A DNA stretch of 60,317 nucleotides from a virus. Positions 3,584 to 60,043 of the stretch are shown here, piece after piece. Below the pieces are notes generated by a model. It saw only the letters and a list, made by a program, of their open reading frames with translations. It was not told the DNA's origin and searched no databases. How positions within the stretch are numbered: position 1 is the first letter of the stretch; every line of letters begins with the position of its first letter. The stretch spans positions 1 through 60,317 of IMG/VR virus record IMGVR_UViG_3300044841_000118; one strand, given 5' to 3'. The position numbers were made by a program, and so were the translations under genes.

Positions 3584-4250
3584 GGTTCTTCCCCCGGAGT
3601 CGCTTGCGATCATCGACCCGGCGGAGGTAGCGCGGCAGACGGTCGTCCAGTTACTGGACGACATCCGCGATCACGAGTACGAGCTGGCCGCCAACTACGC
3701 GCGGCTCGGCGCGGTGCTCTTCGACATCCGCCGCAACCAGTACTGGGACAAATGGGGCTACCTCAGTTTCGGCTCCTACATCCGGGAACTGGCGGACCGG
3801 GTACAGAAAGAGCGGTCACAACTCTACGCGTACATCGGCGTGGCGGAAAAACTTCTGCCGGAGGTAGACGAGCACACGCTGGTCGCGATCGGTATCACCA
3901 AGGCCGGCGAGCTCAAGCGCTTCGTCTCCCAGTCCGGCCGCCGCATTCCTGAGAAGCTGCTGCAGGTAGCGCTCGACGACAAGCGAACCGCCAAGGAACT
4001 GCGCGCCGCGGTGCTCGAAGAGTTGCACCAAGCACCAGACCCGGCGGGCAAGTATTACGAGATCGGCGGGTTCTTTTGCACACCTGATGAGAAGGCAGAG
4101 ATCGATCTGTCGATCCGGATAGCGAAGGGTTTGGATCCAGCTATTCCAAACAACATTCCAGAACATATGCAAATGAAAGAGGTCATGTTGAGGTGGGCGC
4201 GCGAGTTTATCGCCACTTGGCAGGAGGCATTTGAACGTGGAGGAGCTTGA
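3573..4250 (+). CDS. Putative DNA-binding/regulatory protein (DUF3102-like helical protein)
   Basis: Starts at TTG 3573 and overlaps the previous gene. The first 110 residues are helical and have the layout of phage 'Lys/Trp-rich single-turn' regulators: LGAVLFDIRRNQYW, then SFGSYIRELADRVQKERS, then a segment ending KLLPEV. This recalls DUF3102/ParB-like helical domains and is similar in style to the AT-hook protein at 59330-60043. No enzyme motif is visible. One copy of the 15-bp palindrome lies at 3645-3659 inside its 5' end. Confidence 0.5.
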   Translation: MLVEVLPPESLAIIDPAEVARQTVVQLLDDIRDHEYELAANYARLGAVLFDIRRNQYWDKWGYLSFGSYIRELADRVQKERSQLYAYIGVAEKLLPEVDEHTLVAIGITKAGELKRFVSQSGRRIPEKLLQVALDDKRTAKELRAAVLEELHQAPDPAGKYYEIGGFFCTPDEKAEIDLSIRIAKGLDPAIPNNIPEHMQMKEVMLRWAREFIATWQEAFERGGA

Positions 4251-4803
4251 GCTTACCTGCTATAGGTGCCGCGTCACGAAAGTAGAATCTTTGTTCCACC
4301 GGTGCAAAAAGAACAAGACAGGCCGGCACACGATATGTATCGAATGCTCCAAAATGGAGAAGGCGGCCTACTATCGTTCGGAAAAGGCTGTGCGGTTGAG
4401 AAAAGAACGACAGCCCGAGATTGTAGCTTGGCGGGCACAGTACAACAACAACCCGATAAACAAGGAGAAAAGACGCGACGCACATTACAAACATAAATAT
4501 GGAGTCACTCTAGAAGAGTTCCGTTCCATATTAGAGCGTCAACACCATCGTTGTGTCGTGTGCGGAGAGAGTCCATCCAAGTCTACGCAAAAGAAATTCT
4601 GGAATCTAGATCACGATCACGACACAGACAAAGTTCGGGGTGTGCTGTGCACACCCTGTAATCTCACGCTCGGAGTGGCCAAAGAAAGCATACCTCGCCT
4701 CCAGCGCTGCCTAGCCTACCTCCGATTCCACAAAGGAATGATCAAGGTTCCGGGTCCTTTCATGTACAGCAAGCCTCCCCAAGTTGCGCGTAAGAGTTGG
4801 TGA
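4237..4803 (+). CDS. Recombination endonuclease VII-like nuclease
   Basis: GTG 4237 is preferred because AGGAGG ends nine bases upstream; TTG 4231 is an in-frame alternative. The N-terminus has a CxxC pair (CYRC) and a second one (CIEC). The C-terminal half has the endonuclease VII pattern: YGVTLEEF, CVVCGES, LDHDHDT, RGVLCTPCNLTLG. In T4, gp49 of this family resolves branched DNA before packaging. The GC content looks lower than in the neighbours (AT-rich codons at 4260-4500), which suggests recent transfer or a homing origin. Confidence 0.75.
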   Translation: MEELELTCYRCRVTKVESLFHRCKKNKTGRHTICIECSKMEKAAYYRSEKAVRLRKERQPEIVAWRAQYNNNPINKEKRRDAHYKHKYGVTLEEFRSILERQHHRCVVCGESPSKSTQKKFWNLDHDHDTDKVRGVLCTPCNLTLGVAKESIPRLQRCLAYLRFHKGMIKVPGPFMYSKPPQVARKSW

Positions 4804-4809
4804 AAACGC

Positions 4810-5103
4810 ATGGCACGGATACACGTCCCGCATAGCCCGCTCGGGAAGTTCTGCTTCTTCTTCGCAACACAGTGCCTGTCCTACTTTCTGTTCGTGGCCA
4901 ACGCCCGGGCGTACACCCAAGGGCTCTATCTCTGGACCGGAGCGACGGACGGGCTTTTCGCCATGCAGAGCTTCATCATGCTCCAGCTGATAGCGAAGGA
5001 CGCACAGGCCAGCGGCTTCTGGGCCGGGGCCGGTTACACACTGGGCGGTGTGTTCGGCTCGCTGCTCTCTATTTTCGTCACACAACACCTCTACGGACAC
5101 TAA
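4810..5103 (+). CDS. Small membrane protein (97 aa)
   Basis: Two hydrophobic segments are visible, about residues 12-30 (FCFFFATQCLSYFLFVANA) and 68-90 (FWAGAGYTLGGVFGSLLSIF), joined by a polar loop. A holin-like role is possible from topology, but the gene lies among replication genes and not beside a lysin. A role at the membrane is all that can be supported. Confidence 0.5.
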   Translation: MARIHVPHSPLGKFCFFFATQCLSYFLFVANARAYTQGLYLWTGATDGLFAMQSFIMLQLIAKDAQASGFWAGAGYTLGGVFGSLLSIFVTQHLYGH

Positions 5104-5114
5104 GGAGACTCACC

Positions 5115-5378
5115 ATGTCAATGAATCCTCAATACAGCTATGAAGGCAACAGCATCAACGCAGGCGTCGGCCAGAGTAACGGCGACCTGAACAGAACAGC
5201 GATTGGTGGGCTTTCGGGCTATGCCTTCACCGTCAACCAGGGCGGCGAATACGGGAAGCACGAGATCATAGACGCTGACCGGTTCGAACTGGAAGGTGAG
5301 TTCGTGATCTTCTACAAGAAGAACAATCAGGTCGCGCTCCGCCGCCTCCACGAAATCGGCAGCATCTCCGCCCGGTGA
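5115..5378 (+). CDS. Hypothetical protein (87 aa)
   Basis: ATG 5115 is preceded by AAGGAG. The N-terminus is rich in Asn, Gly and Ser. The C-terminal half (FELEGEFVIFYKKNNQVALRR) looks like a small beta fold. The stop overlaps the next GTG by four bases. Confidence 0.55.
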   Translation: MSMNPQYSYEGNSINAGVGQSNGDLNRTAIGGLSGYAFTVNQGGEYGKHEIIDADRFELEGEFVIFYKKNNQVALRRLHEIGSISAR

Positions 5379-6583: not shown

Positions 6584-6711
6584 CGCTGCTCCTTTGCTGG
6601 CGCTGCGGGTACGACACGCGGCTCACCCAGACCACCTGTCCAGAATGTGGACACCCTCTCAAGCCTGTCGCAGGCAGCGATTCCCGGAGACCAAATGCCG
6701 AGAAAATCTAA
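6580..6711 (+). CDS. Small zinc-ribbon protein (43 aa)
   Basis: GTG 6580 overlaps the previous stop. The product is a single four-cysteine ribbon: CWRCG, about 14 residues, then CPECG, with a short tail. Such mini-ribbons are common in phage replication operons and may contact DNA or RNA polymerase. The CPECG codons happen to match the 15-bp palindrome (6638-6652). Confidence 0.5.
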   Translation: MTLLLCWRCGYDTRLTQTTCPECGHPLKPVAGSDSRRPNAEKI

Positions 6712-7471: not shown

Positions 7472-8652
7472 TGCCTACCACCATTGCAGAACTGAAGCAG
7501 CGCCAGGACGAGAAGGACGCCGCCGGAGCCAAGCTCGGCGAGCAGCACGAAGTCACCGGCAACACATGGGAAGTGTCCATCCCTCGGACGCGCATCTGCA
7601 CTCTGGAGCAGTTGGTCGAACACTGCAAGATCGATCTAAACACCTGGACCGTTAAGAGGTTCGTCGCCAATAAGTGGGAGGTTGGTGCCAAGAACCCGGA
7701 CTCCGGCAAGATCGAGGTCGAGCCGCTCTTCCAGATCAAGGCGTTTCTAGAGCGCCGGGTCGAGGTCGCTGACGCTGTCCAGGAACTGGACGAGTTGAAG
7801 CGGAAGGCTAAGCTCAGCGCAAAACCCTGGGTGTCGATAGATCGGAAGATTTCTCTGCCCTCCGGCAACATGCTTGAGGTCAATCTGCCCGATTTACACG
7901 CGGGCAAACTTGCATGGCAGCAGGAAACTGGCGGCCCGAACTATGACACCAAGATAGCGATCAAAGGGTACTGGGATGCCTTCAACACTCTGCTATCTCG
8001 CGTGAAGCATTTCGAGTTTGAGCAGGTGCTATTCGTGGTCGGCAACGACCTGTTGAACTCCGATGACACAGAAGGGCGCACCAACGCCGGCACACAAGTC
8101 TCCACGGATGTCCGCTACCAGAAGACCTTCGGTACTGTTCGGGACACGATGATTGAGTCGATAGAACGCCTTCGGCGCATCGCTCCGGTCAAGGTGGTAA
8201 TGGTTCCGGGAAATCACGACAAGCTGTCGGTCTGGCATCTTGGCGACTCCCTGGAGTGCTACTTCCACAAGTACGAAGACGTGGAAATCGACAACCGACC
8301 GCGTCAGCGCAAATACCATCAGTTCGGCCTCGTCGGTCTCATGTTCTACCACGGTAACAAGGGGAAGAAGGCAGACTACCCCCTAACCATGGCAACCGAG
8401 ATGCGGAAGATGTTCGGCGCCACCAAGTTCAACGAGTGCCATACCGGACACCTTCACAAATCATGGGCCGACGAATTTCACGGGGTCATCGTCCGTATCC
8501 TGAGCGCGCTCTGCCCCGCCGACGCTTGGCATTCGGAGAACAACTTTATCGGTAACCAGCGTACGGCCGAAGCCTTTGTCTGGAACAAGGACGAAGGGCT
8601 CATCACTATCGCGAGATACACGGCAACCGAAGAAGACGAGGAAGTCGCATGA
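7471..8652 (+). CDS. Calcineurin-like metallophosphoesterase
   Basis: GTG 7471 follows GAGGG. The 393-residue protein has the metallophosphoesterase signatures: PDLHAGKL (DxH), VVGNDLLNSDD (GNxxN-like, in place of GDxxD), VPGNHD (GNHD/E), and near the C-terminus HTGHLHKSW (GHxH). The first 130 residues are helical and charged. Phage members of this group are thought to act as nucleases or phosphodiesterases in DNA metabolism. The stop overlaps the next start (ATGA). One 15-bp palindrome copy lies at 7777-7791. Confidence 0.7.
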   Translation: MPTTIAELKQRQDEKDAAGAKLGEQHEVTGNTWEVSIPRTRICTLEQLVEHCKIDLNTWTVKRFVANKWEVGAKNPDSGKIEVEPLFQIKAFLERRVEVADAVQELDELKRKAKLSAKPWVSIDRKISLPSGNMLEVNLPDLHAGKLAWQQETGGPNYDTKIAIKGYWDAFNTLLSRVKHFEFEQVLFVVGNDLLNSDDTEGRTNAGTQVSTDVRYQKTFGTVRDTMIESIERLRRIAPVKVVMVPGNHDKLSVWHLGDSLECYFHKYEDVEIDNRPRQRKYHQFGLVGLMFYHGNKGKKADYPLTMATEMRKMFGATKFNECHTGHLHKSWADEFHGVIVRILSALCPADAWHSENNFIGNQRTAEAFVWNKDEGLITIARYTATEEDEEVA

Positions 8653-9140
8653 GCGATTACCAACTGCACGGACCAGAAGTCCCCATACTCCGGAAGAGAC
8701 CGGGACTGACGACATGGACACCGGTCCGCAAGCCCATCCAACTCCGCTTCCGCAACGGCTACTGGGAGTTCGAGGTGGATGGGAAGCAGCACAGCGGGTA
8801 CAGCTGCCTGACGTGCGCTCTCGGCACCGCCAGCAAGATTCAGATGGCTGTTCGCAAGCGGGAGATCGACCGCGCGCTGCTGGAGATGGAAGCGAAAATC
8901 TGGCGACACGAGTTCGACACCCCCACCGACCCTGTCCAGAAAACGGACGATAACCCATTCGCGTTTCAGGAAGTACTGAACCAAGCCAGCCCCAATGAGT
9001 TTCCTTGGCCCGGCACGATCATCCCCGTGGATGCTGACGACCCGCGACTGCCTCGTCGCAACTGGTTCCATCGCCAACTCGAGGACATCGGTCTGACAGT
9101 CCGCATGATGTGGGAGTTCGTAAAACGGGAGGTTTTGTGA
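8649..9140 (+). CDS. Hypothetical protein (163 aa)
   Basis: Coupled at both ends (ATGA at the start, GTGA with the kinase-like gene). It contains WEFEVDGKQHSGYSCLTCAL and a long charged helix. No known domain is recognised. A copy of the palindrome lies at 8934-8948 within the gene. Confidence 0.55.
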   Translation: MSDYQLHGPEVPILRKRPGLTTWTPVRKPIQLRFRNGYWEFEVDGKQHSGYSCLTCALGTASKIQMAVRKREIDRALLEMEAKIWRHEFDTPTDPVQKTDDNPFAFQEVLNQASPNEFPWPGTIIPVDADDPRLPRRNWFHRQLEDIGLTVRMMWEFVKREVL

Positions 9141-12608: not shown

Positions 12609-13805
12609 ATGGCTAACCGAACCTGCACCCTGATGCTCTACTGCCGCACCGAGAACGGGTGGCGCCGCTTCCCTGCCGCCTTTGGCAAGAACGGGCGCAT
12701 CCGGCCCAACTACGCCGAGGTCGCAGGCGAGCAGGTCCACTTCGATACCGCGCGGTACGAGATCCGCTTCTACGCTGGCCGCAAGGTCCAGTTCAAAGCC
12801 GTCCAGGGAAGCGCAAAGGACGCGCTGGCAGCCCGCCGCCGGCAGGAGGCTCTGCTAGTCGCCCGGGACTCGGCCAAGGCCTCTGGGGCCACCCTGGTCG
12901 AGAATGAGCCCACCCGGAAGAAGCTGACGCAGGAGAAGCAGCGCTGGCTTGAGGGGCTGGAGGCCCGCGGAAAAGCCGAGTTCATCAAGACCGCGCGGGT
13001 GGCGATCGACGACTTTCTGGCCGCCACGGAACTGATCTACGCCGACCAGATCACCGCAGACGCCATGCTGGTCTTCTACCGGGTTCTGCGGAAGCGCGGC
13101 AACTCGGCGCGCACCCTCTACAACAAGGTGATCAACCTCTCCGCCTGGTTCAAGGACATGGGGCTGGAGGTCAAGTCCATCGTCAAGCACAAACCGGTCT
13201 ACACAGAGCGGGAGGTCGACGTCTACAGCCCCGAAGAGATCGGCGACCTGTTCCGCGCCTGCCGCAACGACTACCAGCGCGCGCTGTTCGACGTGCTGCT
13301 CAAGGCCGGGCTGCGCGAGCAGGAGGCGGTCAATCTGGAGTGGACGAACGTCGACTTCCGGGCCAAGGTGCTCCGCGTCCGCGAGAACGTACAAACCGGG
13401 TCATCCATCAAGGACCGGGCCGAGAGATCCGTCCCTATGCCTGACAGTCTGATCGAGTCATTGCGCGCCTGGCGGGAGAAAAGGCCCAAGGCACACCTCG
13501 TCCTCGGCACCGCGACCGACCGGCCCAACAACAAGATGCTGCGGACGCTGAAGCGGGTGGTCAGCGCGGCTAAGCTCAACTGCGGTCGCTGCGATGGGTG
13601 CACCACCCGGGACGAGTGCCGCCGCTGGCGCCTGCACAAGTTCCGGGCCACCTACACCACCCGCCTGCTGCAGAACGGGGTCGATGCCCGAACGGTCATG
13701 GCCTACACGGGGCACGCGGATTTAGCGACCGTGCTGCGCTATCTGGCGCCGGCGGAGGACGCCCCGATGCAGTCCAGGATCAGCAGCATCGAATGGGTGC
13801 GGTAG
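12609..13805 (+). CDS. int: Tyrosine-type site-specific integrase
   Basis: ATG 12609 follows GAAGGAGA. The 398-residue protein has an N-terminal SAM-like arm (about 100-200) and a C-terminal catalytic domain. Visible catalytic residues are Arg in AGLREQEAVNLEW, His-x-x-Arg in RLHKFRATYTTRLL, GHA and Tyr in VLRYLAP. Just before the HxxR box lies a four-cysteine insertion (CGRCDGC...DEC) that could bind zinc. It recombines attP with the tRNA-Ser attB. Downstream genes are on the opposite strand and converge on it. Confidence 0.9.
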   Translation: MANRTCTLMLYCRTENGWRRFPAAFGKNGRIRPNYAEVAGEQVHFDTARYEIRFYAGRKVQFKAVQGSAKDALAARRRQEALLVARDSAKASGATLVENEPTRKKLTQEKQRWLEGLEARGKAEFIKTARVAIDDFLAATELIYADQITADAMLVFYRVLRKRGNSARTLYNKVINLSAWFKDMGLEVKSIVKHKPVYTEREVDVYSPEEIGDLFRACRNDYQRALFDVLLKAGLREQEAVNLEWTNVDFRAKVLRVRENVQTGSSIKDRAERSVPMPDSLIESLRAWREKRPKAHLVLGTATDRPNNKMLRTLKRVVSAAKLNCGRCDGCTTRDECRRWRLHKFRATYTTRLLQNGVDARTVMAYTGHADLATVLRYLAPAEDAPMQSRISSIEWVR

Positions 13806-14083: not shown

Positions 14084-15948
14084 TTTCCGCCCATAATCTT
14101 CTTCGCCTTGGCTGCCTTCACCTTTGGCGCAGGAGCCTTGAGCGCGGGACGCTGGATGTGCGCCTCACCCTCGGGGGTCACATGCACCGGGCTGGTCTTC
14201 GGAGGTTCTGGTTTCGGATAAATCGGGCGCCGTGTTCGATCGACTGCTGTCTCCGCGTTCAGCTTCGGGTACGTTGATCCTGGTACCCCGACATTGCTAT
14301 TCGATGCGTTTCCGGGGAGACCCTTCGCTGCTGGTGCGGCTTGCGGCAGCGCCCCCTGCGAACGGCCAGCCTGCAACGCCTGGGGCGGGGCTGTCGGGCC
14401 AGCAGGTGCCGGGTTGGGCGTCGTCTCGGCAGTGACCGTCTCGGGTGTTCCCTTGCTCGGCAACCGCGGCCTGTCCGGAGTCTGGACGCCGCTATCGAAT
14501 GTGCCGGGCACGGACTCGGGTATCTTCTTGGTGAAGCGGCGGATGTCCGCCTGCGTCTGCGTCATCGGAGACTCGCGGAGCAGCGTCTGTGCGATCTTCT
14601 TCTTGTCTCCGTGCCCGAGGACAGCCCCGGTGACGTCACCGACAGACTCCGCCACGTGTCCGATGAACTGCTTGCCTGTCATCGGGCGGTTGAACTGAAC
14701 CTCTTTCGATGCCAGCGGAACGCGCGCGTTCTCCAGCGCTTCACGAGTGGTGAGTAGATCAGATTCCGTCTGCTTGAGCTTTTTGAAGTCCTGTCCGGTG
14801 GCGTTGCTTAGACCGTCGTAGTATGTGTTACGGACAGCTGACGAAGCGGCACTCAGAGCCTGATCCAGATTCGCCGACCGCTGTACAGCCACGCCGCTCA
14901 TCTTGAAGGACGGAGATGTCTGGTTGTTCAGGTACATCCGAAGTCCGTTCAACTCCCCGAGCGTATCTACGCTGGCGACGCGCTTCTTCAGCGATTCCAG
15001 TTCGTTGACGTCATCTGGGGCATATTTTTCCATGCCCTCCTTCTTCAGATCGTCAATGGCTTGCAGAACGGGTTTCATATCGACGGGCTGGTTCTTCACA
15101 TTCCGCAGCGCGTCCAGGTGTGCCTCGTCGATGTGCTGCTGCGCATTGTGGACAGCTTCGTGGAAGGCGTCGTAGGTTTCCTCTGGAGTGGCTTTCGGAT
15201 CGAGGATGCGTTCCCGTAGTGCCCGGTTCGACTGGATCTCCTGCTGAACGATTGGGGAAACGCTGCTGGCGACCTCCTTCGCGTCGAAGTTCTTCCCCAT
15301 GCCAGCCTTGCCTTGGTCGATGACCGCAGTGAAACCGCGATGGGCTGCGCTGTTCTCAGGATTGGCTCGGTTCTCAAGAGCCCCCTGCGTCTTGTTGACG
15401 CCGCGTTCCGTAAGGTGCGGGACCAAAGAGGTCAGAAGGTCGCCTAACGTTTCGCCTGCACCCCGGTTGGGGCTTTCTTCCATGTCCTTCTGGTCTTCAG
15501 CAAGCGCTGGATTGACTGCCGCATCCGCCATGTGTGATAGACCGAGGTAGTAGTTGGACGCGCGCTGGCTGTTGGTGACAGCGGGGTCGTTCCGAAGATG
15601 ATACGCAGTGCTGATTTCGTCGGCACCCTGCCGTATCAACTGTCCACGATTGTGCAGGTCGCTCTTTATACTATCGACAGGGTTATCAGTGGGAATGGTG
15701 AGCCCCGACAAACGGTGCATCATCCCACGCGCGGCGTCCCCCATGTTTGAAAGGAAACCCCCATCCGTGGGTGCACTACCGCCCGTACTCGGTGCATCCC
15801 ATTCCACACCGTCCGCGCCGCTGGGTGTAGCAGGAGCAGAGGCGGACGGCTCAGAGGTTCCGGTATACACGGTCGCTGGCGCAGTAGCGCCAGCCGTTGC
15901 TGGTGCGTCCCACTCGACTCCGGGAGTTGTGTTCTTCTCGTCGGCCAT
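14080..15948 (-). CDS. Putative ejection/internal virion protein (622 aa)
   Basis: The last gene of the structural operon. It has a Thr/Ala/Pro-rich N-terminus with the repeat GVEWDAP (two copies), a helical centre of about 400 residues and a low-complexity Pro-rich C-terminus. It ends KKIMGGN, like the proteins at 18934-19686 and 18277-18903. Size, position after the tail genes and helical make-up fit podovirus proteins that enter the cell with the DNA. No enzyme domain is recognised. Confidence 0.5.
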   Translation of the reverse strand: MADEKNTTPGVEWDAPATAGATAPATVYTGTSEPSASAPATPSGADGVEWDAPSTGGSAPTDGGFLSNMGDAARGMMHRLSGLTIPTDNPVDSIKSDLHNRGQLIRQGADEISTAYHLRNDPAVTNSQRASNYYLGLSHMADAAVNPALAEDQKDMEESPNRGAGETLGDLLTSLVPHLTERGVNKTQGALENRANPENSAAHRGFTAVIDQGKAGMGKNFDAKEVASSVSPIVQQEIQSNRALRERILDPKATPEETYDAFHEAVHNAQQHIDEAHLDALRNVKNQPVDMKPVLQAIDDLKKEGMEKYAPDDVNELESLKKRVASVDTLGELNGLRMYLNNQTSPSFKMSGVAVQRSANLDQALSAASSAVRNTYYDGLSNATGQDFKKLKQTESDLLTTREALENARVPLASKEVQFNRPMTGKQFIGHVAESVGDVTGAVLGHGDKKKIAQTLLRESPMTQTQADIRRFTKKIPESVPGTFDSGVQTPDRPRLPSKGTPETVTAETTPNPAPAGPTAPPQALQAGRSQGALPQAAPAAKGLPGNASNSNVGVPGSTYPKLNAETAVDRTRRPIYPKPEPPKTSPVHVTPEGEAHIQRPALKAPAPKVKAAKAKKIMGGN

Positions 15949-15951: not shown

Positions 15952-17865
15952 TTAGTTCGCCCTCTTCCAGTTCTTGTTCTTCGCCAGCAAATCATCGACT
16001 TTGTCCATGGTGGTTGTCCCGCCGCGGCCCTTGTCGTCCACAATCCGGACAGGGATAGAGGCTCCGAAGTGCGCGCGCACGAACCGGTTGTGGTCCGCGT
16101 ACACACGCATGCGATCACCCAGCGCAATGCGCGCCGCGCGCACGGCTTCGTCGATCTGCGCAGTGTTGAAGTTCTTCGGGAAGTTCTCCTGCGCGAGCTT
16201 AATCTTGGCGTCTGATGTGGCGCCGCCCTGAGCGAAGATCGAGCCGTATTGCTCCGCGATATCGTTCATCAACTGATGAAGCGTCACACCTTCGGGGCTG
16301 CCGGACTGGATACGGCCCCAAGCCTGTACATCGTTCAATGCCGGCAGTGATGTAATCCCGGCCTTATGCGCCTCCTGCTGCAACTCGGACAGCAGTCCGC
16401 TCTTGCCGTCGCTGCCGGTCAGCGTAACGTTGGCCTTCACCTTAGTCTGGACGGGGACGCTGTTGAACTCCTTCGCCTCCTGGCGCTGGCCCTCAAAGTC
16501 GTACTTGCCGCCGGAGAGTTTCAGGATGCGGTCCTGCACGTCCTGACGGAACTTGGACGCTTCCTTACCCATGCCTTTGCCGACGGTGTCGATGGTATCG
16601 TTTCCGGCAATGATGTTTTTGGCGGCGCGACCAACGCGGTCATCCGCGTTGTTGGGATCAGACACGTCCGATGCAGCATCTGCCGCCTGACTGGTCTGCG
16701 TGGCTCGGCCTGCCCGGGCAGTCTGGTGTGATTTCGCGTCGGAAGCATGAGCAGCGCCAAGCCGCTGGGCCGCCTGCGCCTGTTTATCCGCGAGGTCCGC
16801 CGCATCCATGGCGACCTTCTGCTGCTTCTGCCGATCCGTCTCCTGCTGGAGTTGATACTGCGTGTGCTTGTTCTTCAGCGCGATGTACTGGCTCGCATCC
16901 AGTTGCTTGCCCGGCTGTAGGATGTCGGCCGCGTTCTGCCCCATGGTGTCAAGGAAGCCGTCCTTCTTCCACGCGTTCAGCGTGACGTCTGACAATGGCA
17001 CCTTGCCCTTGGGATCGAACGCCGAGTAAACGTACTGGTAGTGGTGCTCGCCAGTCTGCGCGTCGACGCTCTCCTTCATACCGACCGGCTCCCAGTCCAA
17101 CGCACTTGCGCCAGGATTGCTCTGGATGGTCTTCTGCATCTCTTCTTCGGGAACTTGGTCGAAGGTCGGTTTCAGTCCCGCGTCGAGGTACGGGGCCACA
17201 TTCGTCTTGCCGGCCTGCGCGTGCTTCTGGTGGGTGTCGTAATCCTGTGCCTGCGTTTCCTGATTTAGCTTCAGGGTCCCGATGTTTGAATGAGCGATCT
17301 GTGCCTTCAACAGTTGCCCGTTGACGTCGGTCTCCTGCTGGTCCCGCTGGTTCTTGTCAGCGGTCATTTGATTTTTGAACTGGTTCTGCGCCTGCTCCCG
17401 CCGGCCTTCATCCTGTTGACCCTTCATCTGTTCGACAGCGCCTGCGCCTGCGACGGCACCGGCCAGCGGACTTCCACCTGCCGCGCGCGCGGCCTGCCCA
17501 CCAACGGCTCCACCAACCAACGCACCTGCTAGGATGCGCCGGAAGAGTTCGCCGGGCTTCATGTTGCTCACCGTCGTGACGGTCTGTCCAGTTTTCGGAT
17601 CGATGCTGTAGTTAGCTTCCTTGCCGAGCGCGCCGAGCAACTGCTGCCCGATGCCCGCAAGATGGCTGGTCTTCGCGGCTTGAACCTTCGCTGTTACATC
17701 CGGCTCCGTCGGATTCAGAGCCGCGACTTGCGCGTTCGGCTGCGGCGCGGGGGTTGTCTGCTGTACAGGAACTGGACTCGGCTGCGCCTCTGCCGGTGCG
17801 GTTGGTTCGCCGGCGGGCTGCGCGTCTCCCTGGGGTACTTGCTCGTCGTTCTCTTCCGGACCCAT
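15952..17865 (-). CDS. Putative ejection/internal virion protein with Gly/Ala-rich hydrophobic segment (637 aa)
   Basis: The N-terminus is rich in Pro, Gln and Ala. A Gly/Ala hydrophobic segment (RILAGALVGGAVGGQAARAA) lies near residue 115 and may insert into a membrane during DNA entry. The rest is Gln/Lys-rich and helical (QQETDVNGQLLKAQ). It lies three bases upstream of the 14080-15948 gene. The role as an ejection protein is inferred from composition and position. Confidence 0.5.
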   Translation of the reverse strand: MGPEENDEQVPQGDAQPAGEPTAPAEAQPSPVPVQQTTPAPQPNAQVAALNPTEPDVTAKVQAAKTSHLAGIGQQLLGALGKEANYSIDPKTGQTVTTVSNMKPGELFRRILAGALVGGAVGGQAARAAGGSPLAGAVAGAGAVEQMKGQQDEGRREQAQNQFKNQMTADKNQRDQQETDVNGQLLKAQIAHSNIGTLKLNQETQAQDYDTHQKHAQAGKTNVAPYLDAGLKPTFDQVPEEEMQKTIQSNPGASALDWEPVGMKESVDAQTGEHHYQYVYSAFDPKGKVPLSDVTLNAWKKDGFLDTMGQNAADILQPGKQLDASQYIALKNKHTQYQLQQETDRQKQQKVAMDAADLADKQAQAAQRLGAAHASDAKSHQTARAGRATQTSQAADAASDVSDPNNADDRVGRAAKNIIAGNDTIDTVGKGMGKEASKFRQDVQDRILKLSGGKYDFEGQRQEAKEFNSVPVQTKVKANVTLTGSDGKSGLLSELQQEAHKAGITSLPALNDVQAWGRIQSGSPEGVTLHQLMNDIAEQYGSIFAQGGATSDAKIKLAQENFPKNFNTAQIDEAVRAARIALGDRMRVYADHNRFVRAHFGASIPVRIVDDKGRGGTTTMDKVDDLLAKNKNWKRAN

Positions 17866-21104: not shown

Positions 21105-21892
21105 TAGAACACCACCAGAAGCGTGTGACCGGTAGTTGGGGCGGTCGTGAAATCGATCACCCATTCCCCGGCGATGATGTTCAACGTCGCAGCGGCGGAG
21201 ACCTGATAAAAGCCGTTGTCGAAGACATCTACGCTGGTTGTCTCGGGCGCTCCGCCGACGATGCGGAACCGGGTCGTAGTTCCGTTCGGCACCGGGGCGA
21301 GTGCGTACTGCGCGCGGTCATCGACAATGTCGGGGGTGAAGATAGCGAATGGCGTTGCGCTGGCGGCGGGTGCTGTGGTGAAGACCACTGTCCAGTTTCC
21401 GGACACCCGGTTCAGCGTGTAGTCGGTACCGGGAATCAGCAGATGCCCGTCCGCGCTGTAGACGTCCACGTACGCGCCGTTAGGTAGCCCCGTCGGGAAC
21501 GTGAATGAGGTGATTGTGCCGTCTGCGATAGGCGTGAGTCCGTACTGCTGCCGCGCGTCCACCGGTGTTGCGTACACAGCCGCCATCGTCACGCTGGCTG
21601 CGGGGGGTGTAACGAACGCCACCTGACTGCCGCTCAGGGTATACGCGCTGGTCGGTTGCAGCAGCCCGCCCACGAAGATGTCGGTGTAGCCGCCGGGGAC
21701 CGGCCCCTGGATGGTGAAGGATCCATTCGACCCATCCGGCACGGGCGTCGTGGGGTACTGCTGCCGCGTCGTCTGCGCGCTCACGGTGACGCTCTTGTTC
21801 AGCGTCGCTGTCCCGCCGCCGAACAGACCTGCCCCGGCCACGACGGTGACGCCGACAGTGCTCGAGACGGGTTGCGGGTAGAGTTGGGGCAT
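21104..21892 (-). CDS. Tail fibre-type protein with three beta repeats
   Basis: The 262-residue product has at least three units of roughly 60 residues with the pattern Tyr-x-L/T-x-PVPDG...F...(Y/D)...YTL...ViFTTAP. Repeats of this kind form extended beta rods. Start and stop both overlap neighbours (one base or TAATG), so the fibre genes are co-translated. Confidence 0.6.
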   Translation of the reverse strand: MPQLYPQPVSSTVGVTVVAGAGLFGGGTATLNKSVTVSAQTTRQQYPTTPVPDGSNGSFTIQGPVPGGYTDIFVGGLLQPTSAYTLSGSQVAFVTPPAASVTMAAVYATPVDARQQYGLTPIADGTITSFTFPTGLPNGAYVDVYSADGHLLIPGTDYTLNRVSGNWTVVFTTAPAASATPFAIFTPDIVDDRAQYALAPVPNGTTTRFRIVGGAPETTSVDVFDNGFYQVSAAATLNIIAGEWVIDFTTAPTTGHTLLVVF

Positions 21893-25500: not shown

Positions 25501-26147
25501 GCGCTGATGTCAGCGGTGCAGGTGATCGTCAGGACGTTGCTGGCCACCGCGACGTGCGCCACCGTGGCGAAGACGCCGAACAACTGCTGCATGTTTCCGT
25601 TCGGGTCGATCAGGAAAGTCTGGGTGCTGGCGATGTCCAGCGTGGTGTTGGCGGTCCATGCGAGCAGCGAGTTCTGCAGCTTCTTTTGGTCAATGCCGTT
25701 GCCGAAGAACAGGCAGTTGGCGACGCTCTGCATGTAGCTTTGGCCAGCGCCAGCGCTCTTTGTCCACAAAATGGACTTGGTGCTCGCCCCTGTCGCGTTG
25801 TAGAGACCGTCGGCCTGGTCGGCCAGTACTTTGATCTGCTCGGTACGCGCGTTGAACAGCCGCAGTTCGTAGAAGAAGTCGACCGCGTTGAAGGTCTGGG
25901 AGTTGTAGACCGTGTGCCCGGGTCGACGGATGGCAGTCAGTCGGTTGGAGAGTTCGATGTTGCTGCCATCGATGAACGCATCACCGCGTGGCCCGTAGAA
26001 CTTCTCCTCCATACGCGTGCTCGCGGCATCGCGCAGGGGGCTGCGCTGCGTCCACAGGCCGGTACAGAAGCGACCGGTCCAGAGAGGGGCGTAGTGGGAA
26101 CTACGCAGCGCCTGCGCGCCTGCTAGTTGAAGGGCATTTCCAGACAT
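22593..26147 (-). CDS. Tail tubular protein B-like (gp12-like) tail protein with sugar-binding-type repeats
   Basis: A 1184-residue protein. The first 90 residues and the C-terminal part match the T7 gp12/TTPB layout (nozzle of a short tail). The middle carries about four modules with the pattern W-x-P/A...Y..(D/N)GN..Q...SG(T/A)TQP.W......(T/A)DG...W, which look like beta modules that bind carbohydrate or extend the tail. The same module occurs in the adaptor at 26523-27584. It is the largest gene in the window. Its 5' end faces a 375-base gap. Confidence 0.6.
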   Translation of the reverse strand: MSGNALQLAGAQALRSSHYAPLWTGRFCTGLWTQRSPLRDAASTRMEEKFYGPRGDAFIDGSNIELSNRLTAIRRPGHTVYNSQTFNAVDFFYELRLFNARTEQIKVLADQADGLYNATGASTKSILWTKSAGAGQSYMQSVANCLFFGNGIDQKKLQNSLLAWTANTTLDIASTQTFLIDPNGNMQQLFGVFATVAHVAVASNVLTITCTADISAILAVDLSIRFSGLSTATWLNGQTVTITAVSGTTFTASFTNNFTHADTSVADTGKAAVLSGGTAITGTTQPTWNTTLLGKTYDGTIIWVNRGNPLQNWGIAAPSVKPTIVHGGQSNSWQPNTFYANDPVVIDSNGNLQKVTTAGTSSNSAPAWATSVGTTTTDGTAIWTMIQTAASLVWHPHTTYPQGQFIIGTAVGTPCLFKLEGFSGIKTTGAINAYLYNAPHSGPVGACILTFPTTTGSAVATASGNSFLFNPPANPNRKPVQWATLNGAGETTGYTVPFPSNSENYALALIANIEVPAPGQYTFSLIHQDGLIWGIGGGAEMVSGLTTNPIGQTTTAVSNFPVFGCTNMAGTNTDSVVVNFPSAGTYPIEIDWDYWYHSGQTLQVTVNGQNIIPDPAESGATQPIWPAWNTSFAPSYPTVSESQGALTWTNIGPVADYAWIALTSYITTADIIDPNNNTQNPYEAGKSGTTQPSFSTTFSGTTADNPNLLWINQGQASSPPTGTLTTVNGGWEYCISLVNTLDDTVSNVSPITAATGNFRASTGVAVSGGIPANYDPQVDYVAIFRTQDGGATFFLIPGPGNTPYTLAIQDYLANGYTDTTTDRGLNILLQAPTALQNTPPLVGVVNLTYHLGRIFVSLGNTVYWSTGPDTPIGNGTNGFQPINFATFPSAVKRMVPTSIGLLVFTVSDIYLGVGNATANSPLLFTPYLTGIGLLSYNALDVNGTLIYLFTADRQLIALDPSSGVSEVGFPIGDQLQLWDPTQVYVSWHVDGSQDKALYVANGSTGWYRLCPTPAPETGMMWSPFATITGGVKAVQSIEITPGVHKLLVGPTGSGQLLQRNLSANTDNGTAFTAFGIIGSLVLALPGQIAELSFLTTDASALGSRASISVLLDEISGTFEALPNNVPDPTQLPASASLYMDRRYFSQTQLPAICRHMQIKFAWPAEDAANELLSLTLYGGYSSEK

Positions 26148-26437: not shown

Positions 26438-26452
26438 GTCCAGAAAATGGAA
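26438..26452. promoter_or_regulatory. 15-bp palindrome site (one mismatch)
   Basis: GTCCAGAAAATGGAA, one base off the consensus GTCCRG-N3-MYGGAC, in the gap between the two tail genes. See the finding on the dispersed palindrome. Confidence 0.6.
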
Positions 26453-29511: not shown

Positions 29512-29932
29512 TGCGGCCTCGCGTGTAGAAGAAGTGGATCTGTGTGGTCCCGTCCGCGCCGGTCAGCGTGCCGATGTTCACACGAATATAGGGGACTGGC
29601 TTCGAGTTGAACGAGTAGGTCTTCACTGTGGCGGAGGCGCATGTAACGTCGCCGCTTGGGGTGTCCACGCCGGTATCCCATGCCACGGTGTCAGGAGAAC
29701 TCTGTACCTCGAACGTGCAGACGCTCGGCACCGTGCCGGTGACGTATACCTGGACCGAGTACGATCCCGGCGCGCCACCGTTTCCGGCATTGAGCGTCAC
29801 AGGGATGCCGACCACGCCGGTCGCCACGGCCAATGGCCATGAGTAGGTTCCGGGGGTCGCGTAGGTCACCTGCTGCCCCCACGTCCGGAAAACGGACAGA
29901 AGGAGGATGAGGGGGAGGAGAATGCGCTTCAT
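29501..29932 (-). CDS. Small tail-cassette protein with signal peptide (143 aa)
   Basis: ATG 29932 starts a signal peptide (MKRILLPLILLLSVFRTWG, then QQ). The mature part is beta-rich (YSVQVYVTGTVPSVCTFEVQ). A palindrome copy (29883-29897) lies inside the signal-peptide codons. The four tail-cassette genes overlap or nearly abut, so they are expressed together. Confidence 0.55.
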   Translation of the reverse strand: MKRILLPLILLLSVFRTWGQQVTYATPGTYSWPLAVATGVVGIPVTLNAGNGGAPGSYSVQVYVTGTVPSVCTFEVQSSPDTVAWDTGVDTPSGDVTCASATVKTYSFNSKPVPYIRVNIGTLTGADGTTQIHFFYTRGRNAQ

Positions 29933-34969: not shown

Positions 34970-34984
34970 GTCCGGAAAATGGAC
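34970..34984. promoter_or_regulatory. 15-bp palindrome site
   Basis: GTCCGGAAAATGGAC lies in the 47-base gap between the genes ending at 34991 and starting at 34943, 27 bases upstream of the adaptor start on the minus strand. An exact match to GTCCRG-N3-MYGGAC. Confidence 0.7.
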
Positions 34985-38046: not shown

Positions 38047-38061
38047 GTCCAGAAACTGGAC
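38047..38061. promoter_or_regulatory. 15-bp palindrome site (perfect)
   Basis: GTCCAGAAACTGGAC has perfect dyad symmetry outside the three central bases. It abuts the GC hairpin at 38063-38082 and follows the end of the decoration-like gene on the minus strand. Confidence 0.75.
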
Positions 38062-41470: not shown

Positions 41471-43546
41471 CTACAGCGCGCTTCCGGCTCCTGAGCCGCC
41501 CGGTTCACCGGTCAGGGTGATGGGGCCGGCAGATGCTTCAATGGCGTGTCGAAGAACCTCGCGCGCGGCGCGCGCCATATTCTCCTGATCGGCCAGTTCT
41601 TCCTTGCGGTCGAACGAGTGATCCTGCAACTGCTGCATCGCCTGAGCTTTGGCTGCTGCGGCGGCCGCCGGCGAATCCGCCTGCGAGCGTTGCAGTTCTT
41701 CGGGGGTCATATCCACGATGACGTCGTAGTAGTTGCGCCATTCGCTGGTCTCGAAGAACATGCGCAGGACTTCCTGCATATTCACCTTCTTGCCGGCAAC
41801 CATGAGTTGCTGCGTGACCGAAGGCTGGGAGAGGAACTGTGTGATGATCGGCAGCGACTGCGCCATCGCGCGCCGTGCCTGCATCTTCGCTCCGGCAGAG
41901 ATCGAGAAGCGCACTTGCGCGTTCAGAAGATCGATCACCGTGCCGCCTGAAGCCAGATACTCGTGCTCGAGCTCGTCGTTCAGGATGTCGCGAATGCTGG
42001 AGACTGGCAGGAGAGCCTTGTCCATCTCCATTGCACGGAAGACGAAAGGCAGAAATACCTGGGTCGAAAACTTCTCGACGAAATCACCTGTCCGGTTACT
42101 GGACCCGGCTGACAGCAGACTTGCGCCGGCGGCGGTGCGGGCCAGGTTGGAGTGCCCGGAGGCTCCGGCTACACCGGATGTGCCTGCGTCGCCCGCGCCG
42201 GAGACAAGGTCAACTCGTCCCTGCGACATGGAGATGTGGGCTCCGGCTTCGGGAACAGCCGGGGTACGGGGCAGCGGCGCGAAACCGTTGGGCTCGTCAA
42301 CTTCGATGATCTTGCCCGGCGCGATGCGGATGGACTGCGTCGGAACGTTTTTGCCGCGGACGCGGACGAAGACGCCGTTCAGGTTCAGCGCGGCCTGGTC
42401 GAGCCAGACGTTGGTGATGCCCTGCTGCAGCCGCTGCTCGGATCCGATCAGCTTGCCGAGGCCCATGCCGTGGAAGGCTTCGGGCACATCCCACCAGTTG
42501 ACGCTCAGGTAGGGGATTACGCCGTAGGGGTTCTCGGTATTGCAGATGACCAACTTCTTCTGCAGGACGACGATGTATTTGTCGTTGTCCCAGCGCTCGA
42601 GCACTTCGAGCGGCTCGTTGAAGGGGTCAATCGTGGTGGTCTCGTACGCCGGCTTGGCCTGCTGTACGGCGGTGCCCATCGCAGTTTCGACGGACCCGGT
42701 GTCCTGCTCCGGCTCCTCCCGCGGCGGGAAGAAAAGCATGATCAGCTTTTCCTTCGGCGGAATCGTGAAGCCGGGACGATCGCGGAGTTTGTCCAGATCG
42801 TCGAATGTCATGTACATCCGCTCGACGACGTACTTCGCCTTGCGGATGTCGGGCTTGTCCAGCCCGGGGTCAACCATCACGCGGCCAAGGTTGACGATGT
42901 GCTCGAAGAACGGGCGATCGATCTGTTCCTCGACCGGCTCTATTTCAATGTCGTCACTCTCGATGGTGATCGGAGAGGCGTTCGGGTTACCGGTCGGGTC
43001 CGGAATCTGGATAGGCTGATTCGGCCGGACGTACAGTTTGCGCTTGCGGGTGTAAGACTCCCAACCCCACTTCCAGATGCCGGTGCCGTAAAGCGCGGCC
43101 TGGTGAATGCCGAGCCGGCACTCTTCGCGGAAGTTGATGTCTTCCAACTGGAACGCGAGCAGGGCGGACCATGCGCGGGCAGCCTGCGCGGTTGTCTTCG
43201 GCCGCTGCTGCACCATAAACGGAGGGGACTCGTAGAAGAGCCCGTTCATGATCTGGGGCACCAGTCCGTTGACGGCGGTGGCCAGGGTGTAGAAGGGGAC
43301 GTTGGCGCGCTCAACTTGCGTGCCTTCCCAGTTACGTGTCCCGTAGGGGGACTGGTACAGGGTGGAGGCGACGGTCCAACCGTTCACCCACTGCTTTGAC
43401 TTCTCATATGACTCAGCGCGCGCCGCGTCCTGCACCACCATGCGAAGCGCAGGGTCGTCGTCCCACACTCCCGTGCGGAGGAACTTCTTCGCTTCGTCTG
43501 GAGTGAGAGGGGCTTGCGGGTTGGGGCTTTTGGTCTCGAGCAGCAC
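41471..43546 (-). CDS. Portal protein (T7-like head-to-tail connector, 691 aa)
   Basis: The large size and position between holin-like/terminase genes and scaffold fit a T7-like portal. Visible features: a helical N-terminal wing, GIHQAALYGTGIWKWGWESY, PGLDKPDIRKAKYVVERMYM, the block EAFHGMGLGKLIGSEQRLQQ that forms the stem helix region, and a long Ala/Gln-rich C-terminal helix (barrel). It forms the dodecameric ring through which DNA enters. The start appears to be GTG at 43546. Confidence 0.75.
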   Translation of the reverse strand: MLLETKSPNPQAPLTPDEAKKFLRTGVWDDDPALRMVVQDAARAESYEKSKQWVNGWTVASTLYQSPYGTRNWEGTQVERANVPFYTLATAVNGLVPQIMNGLFYESPPFMVQQRPKTTAQAARAWSALLAFQLEDINFREECRLGIHQAALYGTGIWKWGWESYTRKRKLYVRPNQPIQIPDPTGNPNASPITIESDDIEIEPVEEQIDRPFFEHIVNLGRVMVDPGLDKPDIRKAKYVVERMYMTFDDLDKLRDRPGFTIPPKEKLIMLFFPPREEPEQDTGSVETAMGTAVQQAKPAYETTTIDPFNEPLEVLERWDNDKYIVVLQKKLVICNTENPYGVIPYLSVNWWDVPEAFHGMGLGKLIGSEQRLQQGITNVWLDQAALNLNGVFVRVRGKNVPTQSIRIAPGKIIEVDEPNGFAPLPRTPAVPEAGAHISMSQGRVDLVSGAGDAGTSGVAGASGHSNLARTAAGASLLSAGSSNRTGDFVEKFSTQVFLPFVFRAMEMDKALLPVSSIRDILNDELEHEYLASGGTVIDLLNAQVRFSISAGAKMQARRAMAQSLPIITQFLSQPSVTQQLMVAGKKVNMQEVLRMFFETSEWRNYYDVIVDMTPEELQRSQADSPAAAAAAKAQAMQQLQDHSFDRKEELADQENMARAAREVLRHAIEASAGPITLTGEPGGSGAGSAL

Positions 43547-53679: not shown

Positions 53680-53694
53680 GTCCAGTTTCTGGAC
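53680..53694. promoter_or_regulatory. 15-bp palindrome site (perfect)
   Basis: GTCCAGTTTCTGGAC, a perfect dyad apart from the central TTT, centred 66 bases upstream of the -35 box of promoter P1. Confidence 0.75.
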
Positions 53695-53752: not shown

Positions 53753-53780
53753 TTGACACTAAGTTTGTTTGTGCTACTCT
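53753..53780 (+). promoter_or_regulatory. Early promoter P1 (sigma70-type)
   Basis: TTGACA at 53753-53758 and TACTCT at 53775-53780 with a 16-base spacer ending in TTTGTGC. The same spacer end and hexamers occur in P2 and P3. The start codon of the first early gene is 25 bases downstream. Confidence 0.75.
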
Positions 53781-54556: not shown

Positions 54557-54557
54557 T

Positions 54558-54572
54558 GTCCGGAAAATGGAC
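54558..54572. promoter_or_regulatory. 15-bp palindrome site
   Basis: GTCCGGAAAATGGAC lies between the 45-aa peptide stop and promoter P2, 30 bases upstream of its -35 box. Confidence 0.7.
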
Positions 54573-54602: not shown

Positions 54603-54630
54603 TTGACACGTTGTTAGATTGTGCTATTCT
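54603..54630 (+). promoter_or_regulatory. Early promoter P2 (sigma70-type)
   Basis: TTGACA at 54603-54608 and TATTCT at 54625-54630, 16-base spacer ending in TTGTGC. Nearly identical to P1 and P3. The palindrome 54558-54572 lies 30 bases upstream. Confidence 0.75.
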
Positions 54631-55064: not shown

Positions 55065-55079
55065 GTCCAGATTCTGGAC
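55065..55079. promoter_or_regulatory. 15-bp palindrome site in a short intergenic leader
   Basis: GTCCAGATTCTGGAC, a perfect dyad apart from the three central bases, lies in the 32-base gap before the next ATG and only two bases before its GAGGAG. A bound protein or a folded RNA here would affect translation or transcription of that gene. Confidence 0.7.
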
Positions 55080-55721: not shown

Positions 55722-55857
55722 CACCATCGCAAACACCATCAGCCGGTTTATCTGCCTGCACCGTGGCTCGCAGCTGCGGCGCGTTGAAGGTTCCGTGCTC
55801 TACATCGAGTGCATGGAATGTGGCGCCTGCAGCCCTGGAGTTGTGACCGGCGAGTAG
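55714..55857 (+). CDS. Small cysteine-rich protein (47 aa)
   Basis: ATG 55714 follows AAAGGAG and overlaps the previous gene by eight bases. It has a short basic N-terminus and a CMECGACS motif. The G of the TAG stop is the first base of the palindrome at 55857. Probably a zinc-binding peptide. Confidence 0.45.
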   Translation: MLNTIANTISRFICLHRGSQLRRVEGSVLYIECMECGACSPGVVTGE

Positions 55858-55871
55858 TCCAGTAAATGGAC
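55857..55871. promoter_or_regulatory. 15-bp palindrome site
   Basis: GTCCAGTAAATGGAC starts on the last base of the preceding stop codon, 45 bases upstream of the P3 -35 box. Confidence 0.7.
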
Positions 55872-55916: not shown

Positions 55917-55944
55917 GTGACACGAAGTTTGTTTGTGCTATTCT
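55917..55944 (+). promoter_or_regulatory. Early promoter P3 (sigma70-type)
   Basis: GTGACA at 55917-55922 (one base off TTGACA) and TATTCT at 55939-55944, with a 16-base spacer ending in TTTGTGC, as in P1 and P2. Confidence 0.7.
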
Positions 55945-56925: not shown

Positions 56926-57210
56926 ATGCACTGCCCCATCTGTTACGAACGAAGCAAGGGACAAGGAGCGCGGCCGCTCCGGCGCAGCATCGGCAGGGTG
57001 GCCGCCGAATCCCTGAACCGCGCATCTGAATCCGCTATGCGAAATCTGACCAGTCCAGTTTCTGGACACATAGGGGTGATGGACGCGCGTAGTGCGGCAC
57101 ACGCAGCAAGACATCTGGAGATAGAAGCGCCGGCGCGGTTTGCCTATCTCCTTCCAGACTCCCCCGAGGGGGTGGGCCAGTTATTTTTGAAACGAACGGA
57201 GGCTGTATGA
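56926..57210 (+). CDS. Hypothetical protein (94 aa)
   Basis: ATG 56926 after AAAGG is preferred over GTG 56902. The N-terminus has CPIC and basic residues (RPLRRSIGR). The stop overlaps the next start (ATGA). A palindrome copy (57053-57067) lies inside the ORF, so the gene or the site may be fortuitous. Role unknown. Confidence 0.45.
   Translation: MHCPICYERSKGQGARPLRRSIGRVAAESLNRASESAMRNLTSPVSGHIGVMDARSAAHAARHLEIEAPARFAYLLPDSPEGVGQLFLKRTEAV
57053..57067. promoter_or_regulatory. 15-bp palindrome site (perfect, inside a small ORF)
   Basis: GTCCAGTTTCTGGAC, identical to the site at 53680, lies in the 56926-57210 frame. Identity to an intergenic copy suggests it is a genuine site even within a short gene. 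Confidence 0.6.
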
Positions 57211-58188: not shown

Positions 58189-58200
58189 CGTACCGCTAGC

Positions 58201-58314: not shown

Positions 58315-58319
58315 TTTCC

Positions 58320-58849: not shown

Positions 58850-58882
58850 GGGAGGGGTGCTGGTAGTTAAGATGCGGATTGC

Positions 58883-59089
58883 TGAGAAAAATTAACATAC
58901 TTTTTCTCAATCGTTGTCCGCGTCTTGCGCGTCCTAAACCAAACCAAAACCTATACCAAACCTAAACCTAAACCCTACGGGCATCTTCCGGGATTATCCG
59001 GGAGACTCCGGGAGAACTGTAAGCTCCACAAAACACACGGCTTGCTGCAGGGGGTATCACAAAGGTAACTAAATTGTCTCTAAATTGTC
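58883..59089. promoter_or_regulatory. Repeat-rich regulatory or origin-like region
   Basis: Within about 200 bases lie: an inverted repeat TGAGAAAAA/TTTTTCTCA (58883-58909, nine-base spacer); a tract of CCTAAAC-like repeats (58933-58977); three exact TCCGGGA repeats at 58987, 58997 and 59007, each 10 bases apart; and two CTAAATTGTC repeats at 59069 and 59080, 11 bases apart. Phased repeats suggest cooperative protein binding, as at replication iterons or multi-site operators. No ORF fits here. Confidence 0.6.
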
Positions 59090-59115
59090 ATTTTCGCGTT
59101 TATGATGTGCTCTCA

Positions 59116-59295
59116 ATGACCAAAACGAAGGGCGGCAAGGTGCCGCAATGCCCTATCCATGGGCGGGATCTGGTGTGCCCGTCTTGTGCAGCAATCGAAC
59201 GGGGCCGGAAGGGCGGGGAGAAGACCTCCGCCGAAAAAGCGAAAACCGCGCGGGAGAACGCGGCCAAAGCTCGTAAGAAACGGCACCCGAAGTGA
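59116..59295 (+). CDS. Small basic zinc-ribbon protein (59 aa)
   Basis: ATG 59116 is preferred over the longer frame. A candidate -10 box (TATGAT) lies 10 bases upstream and there is no Shine-Dalgarno site, so the message may be leaderless. The protein has CPIHG and CPSC followed by a Lys/Ala-rich tail (KKRHPK). Located just after the iteron-like repeats, it may be a DNA-binding regulator. Confidence 0.5.
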   Translation: MTKTKGGKVPQCPIHGRDLVCPSCAAIERGRKGGEKTSAEKAKTARENAAKARKKRHPK

Positions 59296-59329
59296 AGCCG
59301 GGCGGGTCTGTCTCCAACCCGCCCAACCC

Positions 59330-60043
59330 CTACGCGGCTTCTTCTTCTTCTACTTTGCGTGGGCGGCCGCGCTTGGCCCGTACGCCTTCGGCGATCGCAA
59401 TCGGCTCGAAACTCTGCCGGTTAGATATCCCCATTGCGGTCATCAACATGCCCACGTGTGCGTCAAGAAACGCTTTCCGTGCTTTGTGGCTGCGGGGCAG
59501 ACGCTTGACGCGGCTGTCCACAAACCGGAAGCACTCGAGCTCGATACGGTCCAGGCTGTACGTTCTCTCTTGCAGGTAATGCTCTTTGCGGAACTGGACG
59601 ACCTTGTCCAGGTAGTCGTGAACTTTCTTCGGATCTTGCGTCTTGGGCGGTGGCAGCGCAGCAACCGCTTCCGTGAAACGACCAAGGGGGCGCTCCTCAT
59701 TCGTCCCCATCATGTCCAGGCCCCGAGACATCGCTGCCAGCAAGTAAATCTCCGGCAGGTTGGCCTTCGCGTTCTCGAACCCGTTCATTAAGTTGTAGGC
59801 AGTCTTGCGGTCAAAGCGGATCTCGTCCAGAAAACGGACGAACACCCCCTTGGGCTGCAGGATTTCGCGGATGCGGACCAGCCGCTCCCCGATTGCCATG
59901 CGTGCCCGCCCGAAGTTGACCATGTCACTGCCTAAACCTTTGGTCTCCTTCTCAAGCGTGGCGCGTTCCTTTGGATCGAGTTCCCCCAGGTGGTCGATCA
60001 CCGCTTCGAAGTTCGTCAATGTGATGTCTGTGTTCTTCATCAT
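59330..60043 (-). CDS. Putative transcription regulator with AT-hook, divergent from the right operon
   Basis: The 237-residue protein has a helical N-terminal two thirds (LGSDMVNFGRARMAIGERL, FLDEIRFDRKTAYNLMNGFE) of DUF3102-like style, similar in type to the product of 3573-4250, and ends KRGRPRKVEEEEAA, an AT-hook with an acidic tail. It is transcribed away from the plus-strand gene at 60280, as repressor genes often are. It could be the phage repressor, but no HTH is recognised. A palindrome copy (59825-59839) lies inside it. Confidence 0.55.
   Translation of the reverse strand: MMKNTDITLTNFEAVIDHLGELDPKERATLEKETKGLGSDMVNFGRARMAIGERLVRIREILQPKGVFVRFLDEIRFDRKTAYNLMNGFENAKANLPEIYLLAAMSRGLDMMGTNEERPLGRFTEAVAALPPPKTQDPKKVHDYLDKVVQFRKEHYLQERTYSLDRIELECFRFVDSRVKRLPRSHKARKAFLDAHVGMLMTAMGISNRQSFEPIAIAEGVRAKRGRPRKVEEEEAA

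Follow-up and report, generated by a model that had tools for sequence, protein, structure and literature searches.

Dispersed palindromes and a candidate ParB/Noc-like binding protein in a group of uncultured phages

The uncultured virus record IMGVR_UViG_3300044841_000118 was analysed over its whole 60,317 bases (hereafter, the window), which include an SU10-type portal gene. With genes called by a simple codon-score caller written for this analysis, the late genes run leftward (about 14-52.5 kb) and the early genes rightward from 53.8 kb and again at 1-13.8 kb. A palindrome, GTCCRGNNNMYGGAC, is dispersed over the window, and the product of the early gene 3573-4250 is the candidate protein that would bind it (Table 1). 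By portal, the closest cultured relative, and the only one, was Tunturiibacter phage Tunturi_3 (34%), and relatives of the capsid gene were found in acidobacterial metagenome-assembled genomes (MAGs). These relatives point to soil Acidobacteria as the hosts of the window virus.

The window contains 15 exact GTCCRGNNNMYGGAC sites. When up to one mismatch was allowed on both strands, 61 matches were found versus 3.5 in dinucleotide shuffles (0 of 100 shuffles reached 61), and the pattern read backwards had no match in the window. A preliminary description of this DNA had listed 14 exact sites, 13 of which are exact; that at 6638 has one mismatch, and two more, at 21390 and 42090, had been overlooked. 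Its one-mismatch copies at 26438 and 58527 are present, together with many others elsewhere, and its chance expectation of 0.06 was too low given the 60% G+C. The broader core GTCC-N7-GGAC occurs at 24 sites (1.5 expected) and ranks top among all gapped palindromes of the window with 4- or 5-base arms. The palindrome is genuine, and its frequency greatly exceeds chance. Within genes, 16 core sites were counted versus 3.4 after synonymous-codon shuffles, indicating selection on the DNA and not on the protein phrase VQxLD. An artefact of codon usage or composition, such as in-frame GTC CAG NNN CTG GAC, would agree with the 9 of 16 coding sites that lie in frame 0, whereas the excess over synonymous shuffles, the use of all frames in relatives and the intergenic excess exclude it, leaving a likelihood next to nil.

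The same core was the top palindrome of the whole records of several relatives (designated by G numbers), with 46 sites versus 0.31 expected in G026, 19 versus 0.42 in G018, 19 versus 0.67 in G015 and 13 versus 0.82 in the sister G028. G021 carries it in the form GTCCG-N5-CGGAC (28 versus 0.19), and enrichment was weaker in G030, G023 and G019. A second set of relatives, found by the capsid gene, added G049 (76 versus 3.0, the highest copy number, in 97 kb), G057 (61 versus 2.2), G042 (60 versus 2.2), G048 (53 versus 2.1), G036 (30 versus 2.2), G054 (21 versus 1.3) and G040 (11 versus 1.1). Two lineages without GTCC have shifted forms, namely TTCC-N7-GGAA in G045 (31 versus 2.7) and TCCG-N5-CGGA in G041 (22 versus 1.1), where the outer base is free (NTCCG). 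The palindrome scan showed no motif in G025, G001, G029 or Tunturi_3; the only alternative signal in G025, CCNGG at a codon-periodic distance, was taken as an artefact. In two acidobacterial MAGs, GTCC-N7-GGAC was not enriched over the reversed control (94 versus 137 and 147 versus 432), so that the equal density in the host, which the preliminary description had named as counting against its proposal, was not seen. The motif is phage-specific and common to this phage group. Two matches in G018, at 5134 and 7710, resemble by eye the variable arms of tRNA-like sequences and are therefore probably not binding sites.

About half of the sites fall within genes, where nearly every genome tested has several times as many as its synonymous shuffles. 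Meanwhile, an intergenic excess was observed in G049 (43 of 76 sites versus 20% expected, P 1.6e-12) and G026 (P 7.7e-9). In the window, 8 of 24 core sites are not wholly coding (17% expected, P 0.046); the intergenic preference described earlier is thus modest in the window and strong in relatives. Sites were selected both within and between genes. As evidence on function the intergenic enrichment is weak, because coding constraint alone would yield it. Early regions have twice the density of coding sites found in late regions, and non-coding sites are similarly dense in both. Overall density is 0.57 sites per kb in G042, G048 and G057, within a group range of about 0.2-0.8. The gaps between sites were more regular than random in 5 of the 13 genomes tested (G049, G036, G045, G026 and G042; P 0.026 or less), with P values of 0.049 or more in the other eight. 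Orientation is mixed in most genomes. Exact site positions turn over rapidly between relatives, and the conservation in sister phages that the preliminary description looked for was found only for a part of them, including 42090 and 26896, kept in G028, and a site immediately upstream of one gene shared by G000, G028, G021 and G026. Additionally, a shared upstream site was found in 16 homologous gene pairs, not all independent, versus 1.6 in rotations. Three sites of the window lie about 30-58 bp upstream of putative -35 boxes and several at stop codons, not on the promoters themselves. The three putative early promoters of the window (53753-53780, 54603-54630 and 55917-55944) share a TTGACAC...GTTTGTGCTAYTCT-like sequence, and a similar putative promoter lies behind site 8156 in G028.

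All protein clusters of 29 genomes were ranked by their presence in motif-bearing large genomes. The family of 3573-4250 ranked first, being found in 15 of 15 and the sole non-structural family to be so. Among the four motif-less genomes, it was present only in G025 and absent from Tunturi_3, G029 and G001. Homologues had to be sought with the closer alignments A4 and A6, since the window protein alone gave no matches and no stretch of the seven-row alignment A3 was sufficiently conserved for a search. The protein led to six further loci, each with the arginine discussed below and a GTCC motif, and an acidobacterial MAG contig encoding the homologue has 7 sites versus 0.8. No cultured phage of the collection searched encodes the protein at E 0.01. 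The gene belongs to a conserved order of genes for a primosomal-like protein, primase/helicase, sliding clamp and the ParB-like protein, followed by two small conserved genes, and in several relatives it overlaps the clamp gene by 4 bases. A small gene adjoining it (G026 L047:7581-8060 and homologues) has a weak sigma-factor match (E 6e-4), and no homologue of this gene was detected in the window. In the window, a 295-aa protein with a signal-peptide-like start and a poly-proline stretch (2338-3225) is inserted between the clamp and ParB-like genes; it has no homologue among the relatives.

The fold model of the 3573-4250 protein had a pLDDT of 84, and the DNA-binding domains of Noc, SopB, Spo0J and ParB were among its best Foldseek matches in the PDB (Noc 7nfu: probability 0.92, E 0.46). 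The N-terminal ParB/Srx CTPase (clamp) domain was not seen, the N-terminal part being all helical in the model. Comparison of the family profile with the ParB proteins of the MAGs by hhalign aligned the recognition helices and set Arg81 on an arginine of host ParB. The only families that the protein itself matched are of unknown function. The relation to ParB is suggestive and not established.

Arg81 is invariant in 13 GTCC lineages and is replaced by Lys in G045 (TTCC) and by His in G041 (outer base free), on separate branches of the tree. Among the 12 invariant columns of the family, Arg81 alone differs in both genomes; of 386 such columns in the other families tested, 3 show this pattern. 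R173 of Caulobacter ParB forms a bond with guanine 1 of parS, whereas Noc, with Gln at this position, reads adenine (PMC7383237). Our reading of the hhalign alignment suggests that Arg81 corresponds to R173. The computed pattern, in which Arg81 was replaced only in the two lineages lacking the outer G, is the one expected of a ParB/Noc-type recognition helix reading that base. A second, weaker trend pairs Ala86 with GTCCA-type and other residues with GTCCG-type half-sites, with G040 as the exception.

Co-occurrence, fold and covariation at Arg81 thus strongly favour 3573-4250 among the three regulators named in the preliminary description, and we infer from them that its product binds the palindromes. 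The second regulator, 59330-60043, has homologues only in G028, G023 and G030/G004, its antiparallel placement being kept in four lineages, and its model gave no useful fold match; it was rejected as the general binder and is possibly a repressor. None of the relatives has a homologue of the third, the Xis-like 11815-12009. Among other genes, the Cys-rich g5829 (5829-6236) was discarded, as it was not found in G045, which retains a motif, and the apparent homologues of 863-1060 were chance matches to a capsid gene.

In the explanation that we propose, a single dimeric protein made by the phage, the 225-aa product of 3573-4250, would bind the palindromes through a helix-turn-helix (HTH) domain of the ParB/Noc type, the protein itself lacking the CTPase clamp domain. 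Each subunit would read one GTCCR half-site, with Arg81 of the recognition helix reading the outer G and the A/T-rich centre acting as a spacer. Made along with the helicase and the sliding clamp, the protein would occupy about 0.2-0.8 fixed points in every kb of phage DNA. As a whole, this explanation appears probable to us. Several observations weigh against it. The Foldseek E-values are weak, that for Noc included, the hhalign comparison was not significant (P 0.07), and the protein has no Pfam match, a Pfam ParB domain included. G025 encodes a homologue with Arg81 and has no motif, and several motif-bearing records, probably fragments, have no 3573-4250 gene; most records are incomplete, so the absence of a gene from a record means little. 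Co-occurrence alone is weak evidence because many replication genes are inherited together, and the specificity link, noticed after the fact, consists of two lineages, with G041 on a long branch. In addition, a PF13614 search of 16 records revealed no homologue of ParA.

What binding would lead to is the least certain part. We lean slightly, at a little under an even chance, towards blocking or insulation of transcription across the genome, with or without compaction of replicating DNA, comparable to the action of KorB operators or L5 stoperators, because the density and the drift in specificity resemble L5 stoperators and sites stand between early genes and promoters. The even spacing and the link with the clamp gene count against this leaning, and a purely architectural or segregation use, somewhat less likely, is the main alternative. 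The position in the replication operon, the lack of ParA and of a CTPase domain, and an integrase not tied to the motif together suggest that a protein of the replication operon marks the phage genome along its full length. It is conceivable, to a similar degree, that a clamp-less ParB/Noc-like protein made with the replisome imposes a phage nucleoid or silencing state from 20-76 evenly spaced palindromes, its residue-for-base code diverging between phages. The genome-wide operator/stoperator system of the preliminary description is supported in part, as a phage-specific network for a sequence-specific DNA-binding protein that is common to the relatives, whereas its link to an immunity repressor is conjectural. 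In an immunity network, a lysogeny repressor (3573-4250 or, for example, 59330-60043) would act at operators and dispersed stoperators, and the motif variants would define immunity groups. Such a network is favoured by the tyrosine integrase in 9 of the 15 motif-bearing large genomes, by a scan of 13 genomes that found no HTH_3 repressor, by sites that follow early genes and precede early promoters, by motifs alike without being identical between phages, as in Cluster A, and by the density of G042, G048 and G057, which is about that of L5. Against it stand the integrases of the motif-less G025 and G029, the replication operon in which the favoured gene is linked with that of the clamp, and the restriction of 59330-60043 to four lineages. 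Moreover, the sites are palindromic and of mostly mixed orientation, whereas L5-clade stoperators are oriented with transcription (PMC6550527). We regard immunity as unlikely; given the operon, genome organisation fits at least as well. A purely architectural role, in which a Noc-like protein fixed evenly on the replicating genome would organise, segregate or tether it with no direct effect on transcription, is about equally unlikely. It agrees with the even spacing in several genomes, a density of non-coding sites that differs little between early and late regions, the turnover of exact positions, the helicase-clamp operon and a fold nearest to Noc, and is opposed by the lack of ParA and of a CTPase domain in the model and by the conserved junctions and stop-codon-adjacent sites of some genomes.

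Two further explanations dispense with the 3573-4250 protein. The sites could form RNA hairpins (terminators, processing sites or leader structures), as the position of some between a stop codon and a ribosome-binding site would allow; in G026, moreover, the stem tends to continue into the flanks, where positions -1 and -3 covary. The seven other genomes tested had no flank covariation, the stem does not vary in sequence, loops occur in both orientations, and the window matches no RNA family except a tRNA, which makes hairpins very improbable. Equally slim is the chance that the sites serve a regulator of the host, such as ParB or a LexA-like protein, which the phage exploits. Size and symmetry of the sites are typical of bacterial regulators, whereas the two acidobacterial genomes showed no enrichment and the changes in specificity follow a phage residue.

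Genome-wide site networks in phages are best known from the stoperators of actinobacteriophages. As in L5 and other Cluster A phages, dozens of short sites are dispersed here, most not associated with promoters, and the motif drifts between related phages (PMC6550527). The many copies of one short motif thus match Cluster A, whereas the core is a palindrome without common orientation in place of an asymmetric 13-mer in one orientation relative to transcription, and the candidate binder is ParB/Noc-like and encoded in the replication operon. The operators of KorB in plasmid RK2 are likewise dispersed and fewer than the phage sites described here. KorB, a ParB-family protein, silences genes at long range (PMC11790492) and is a DNA-sliding clamp, whereas the candidate has no clamp domain. 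Palindromic sites scattered over the genome also characterise the NBS sites of Bacillus subtilis Noc (PMC4331003), a protein that, like ParB, the HTH of the candidate resembles in the fold model, and Arg81 is proposed to read the outer G as ParB R173 reads G1 of parS (PMC7383237). Unlike Noc and ParB, the candidate is phage-encoded, has no CTPase domain and no ParA was found, and its half-site is GTCCR. The density of parS or NBS on chromosomes is far below 0.2-0.8 sites per kb. The network appears to be a solution unrelated to that of actinobacteriophage stoperators, in uncultured viruses of Acidobacteriota, and is probably a gene-control or genome-organisation system of a large, almost uncultured phage group. 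With a candidate protein, naturally occurring variants in specificity and one clear residue, it is a tractable case of a DNA-binding protein and up to 76 dispersed sites changing together.

Table 1. Genes and palindromic sites of the window (a dot in the strand column is given for sites without strand).
Position	Strand	Feature	Sequence	Context
34..627	+	DnaB-type helicase, C-terminal part		truncated by left end of window; replication operon begins here
1153..2289	+	sliding-clamp-like gene (phrog_947)		immediately precedes ParB-like gene in several relatives
3573..4250	+	candidate palindrome-binding protein, 225 aa		mostly helical; HTH like ParB/Noc DNA-binding domain; recognition-helix Arg81
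3645..3659	.	palindrome	GTCCAGTTACTGGAC	72 bp inside ParB-like gene
6638..6652	.	core site	GTCCAGAATGTGGAC	intergenic; one mismatch to pattern of preliminary description
7777..7791	.	palindrome	GTCCAGGAACTGGAC	in exonuclease gene
8934..8948	+	site	GTCCAGAAAACGGAC	coding
12609..13805	+	tyrosine integrase
14473..14487	.	site	GTCCGGAGTCTGGAC	coding
16036..16050	.	core site	GTCCACAATCCGGAC	coding
21390..21404	.	site	GTCCAGTTTCCGGAC	coding; G028 keeps 7/8 core bases
25762..25776	+	core site	GTCCACAAAATGGAC	coding
26438..26452	+	one-mismatch site	GTCCAGAAAATGGAA	intergenic
26896..26910	.	core site	GTCCATATAACGGAC	coding; G028 keeps core, same place
29883..29897	+	site	GTCCGGAAAACGGAC	coding
34970..34984	+	site	GTCCGGAAAATGGAC	intergenic; sites at same gene junction in G028, G021, G026
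38047..38061	.	palindrome	GTCCAGAAACTGGAC	intergenic
42090..42104	.	site	GTCCGGTTACTGGAC	in portal gene; identical site, same place, in G028
53680..53694	.	palindrome	GTCCAGTTTCTGGAC	early divergent region; TTGACA box 58 bp downstream
54558..54572	+	site	GTCCGGAAAATGGAC	30 bp upstream of TTGACA-N16-TATTCT (54603-54630)
55065..55079	.	palindrome	GTCCAGATTCTGGAC	between stop codon of 54656-55060 and next ribosome-binding site
55857..55871	+	site	GTCCAGTAAATGGAC	overlaps stop codon of 55714-55857; GTGACA-N16-TATTCT (55917-55944) 45 bp downstream
57053..57067	.	palindrome	GTCCAGTTTCTGGAC
59330..60043	-	rival regulator, 237 aa		HTH-like segment; AT-hook-like RGRPRK tail; antiparallel to early genes
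59825..59839	+	site	GTCCAGAAAACGGAC	inside 59330-60043

Other palindromes were enriched in some relatives. TCTCA-N3-TGAGA, perhaps another operator, was found 7 times versus 0.05 in G045 (L226-L230) and 4 times versus 0.03 in G036 (L209-L212), and GCGC-N11-GCGC 12 times in both G015 (versus 0.36) and G024 (versus 0.28). The late region of the window carries a tRNA-Asn(gtt) at 37453-37530. Group I introns (RF00028) were detected in the capsid gene region of G021 (L051:12854-13035, 61 bits) and G018 (L060:9264-9442, 57 bits). In several other relatives the capsid gene is split, with a conserved 287-aa open reading frame alongside, and that of the window is uninterrupted.

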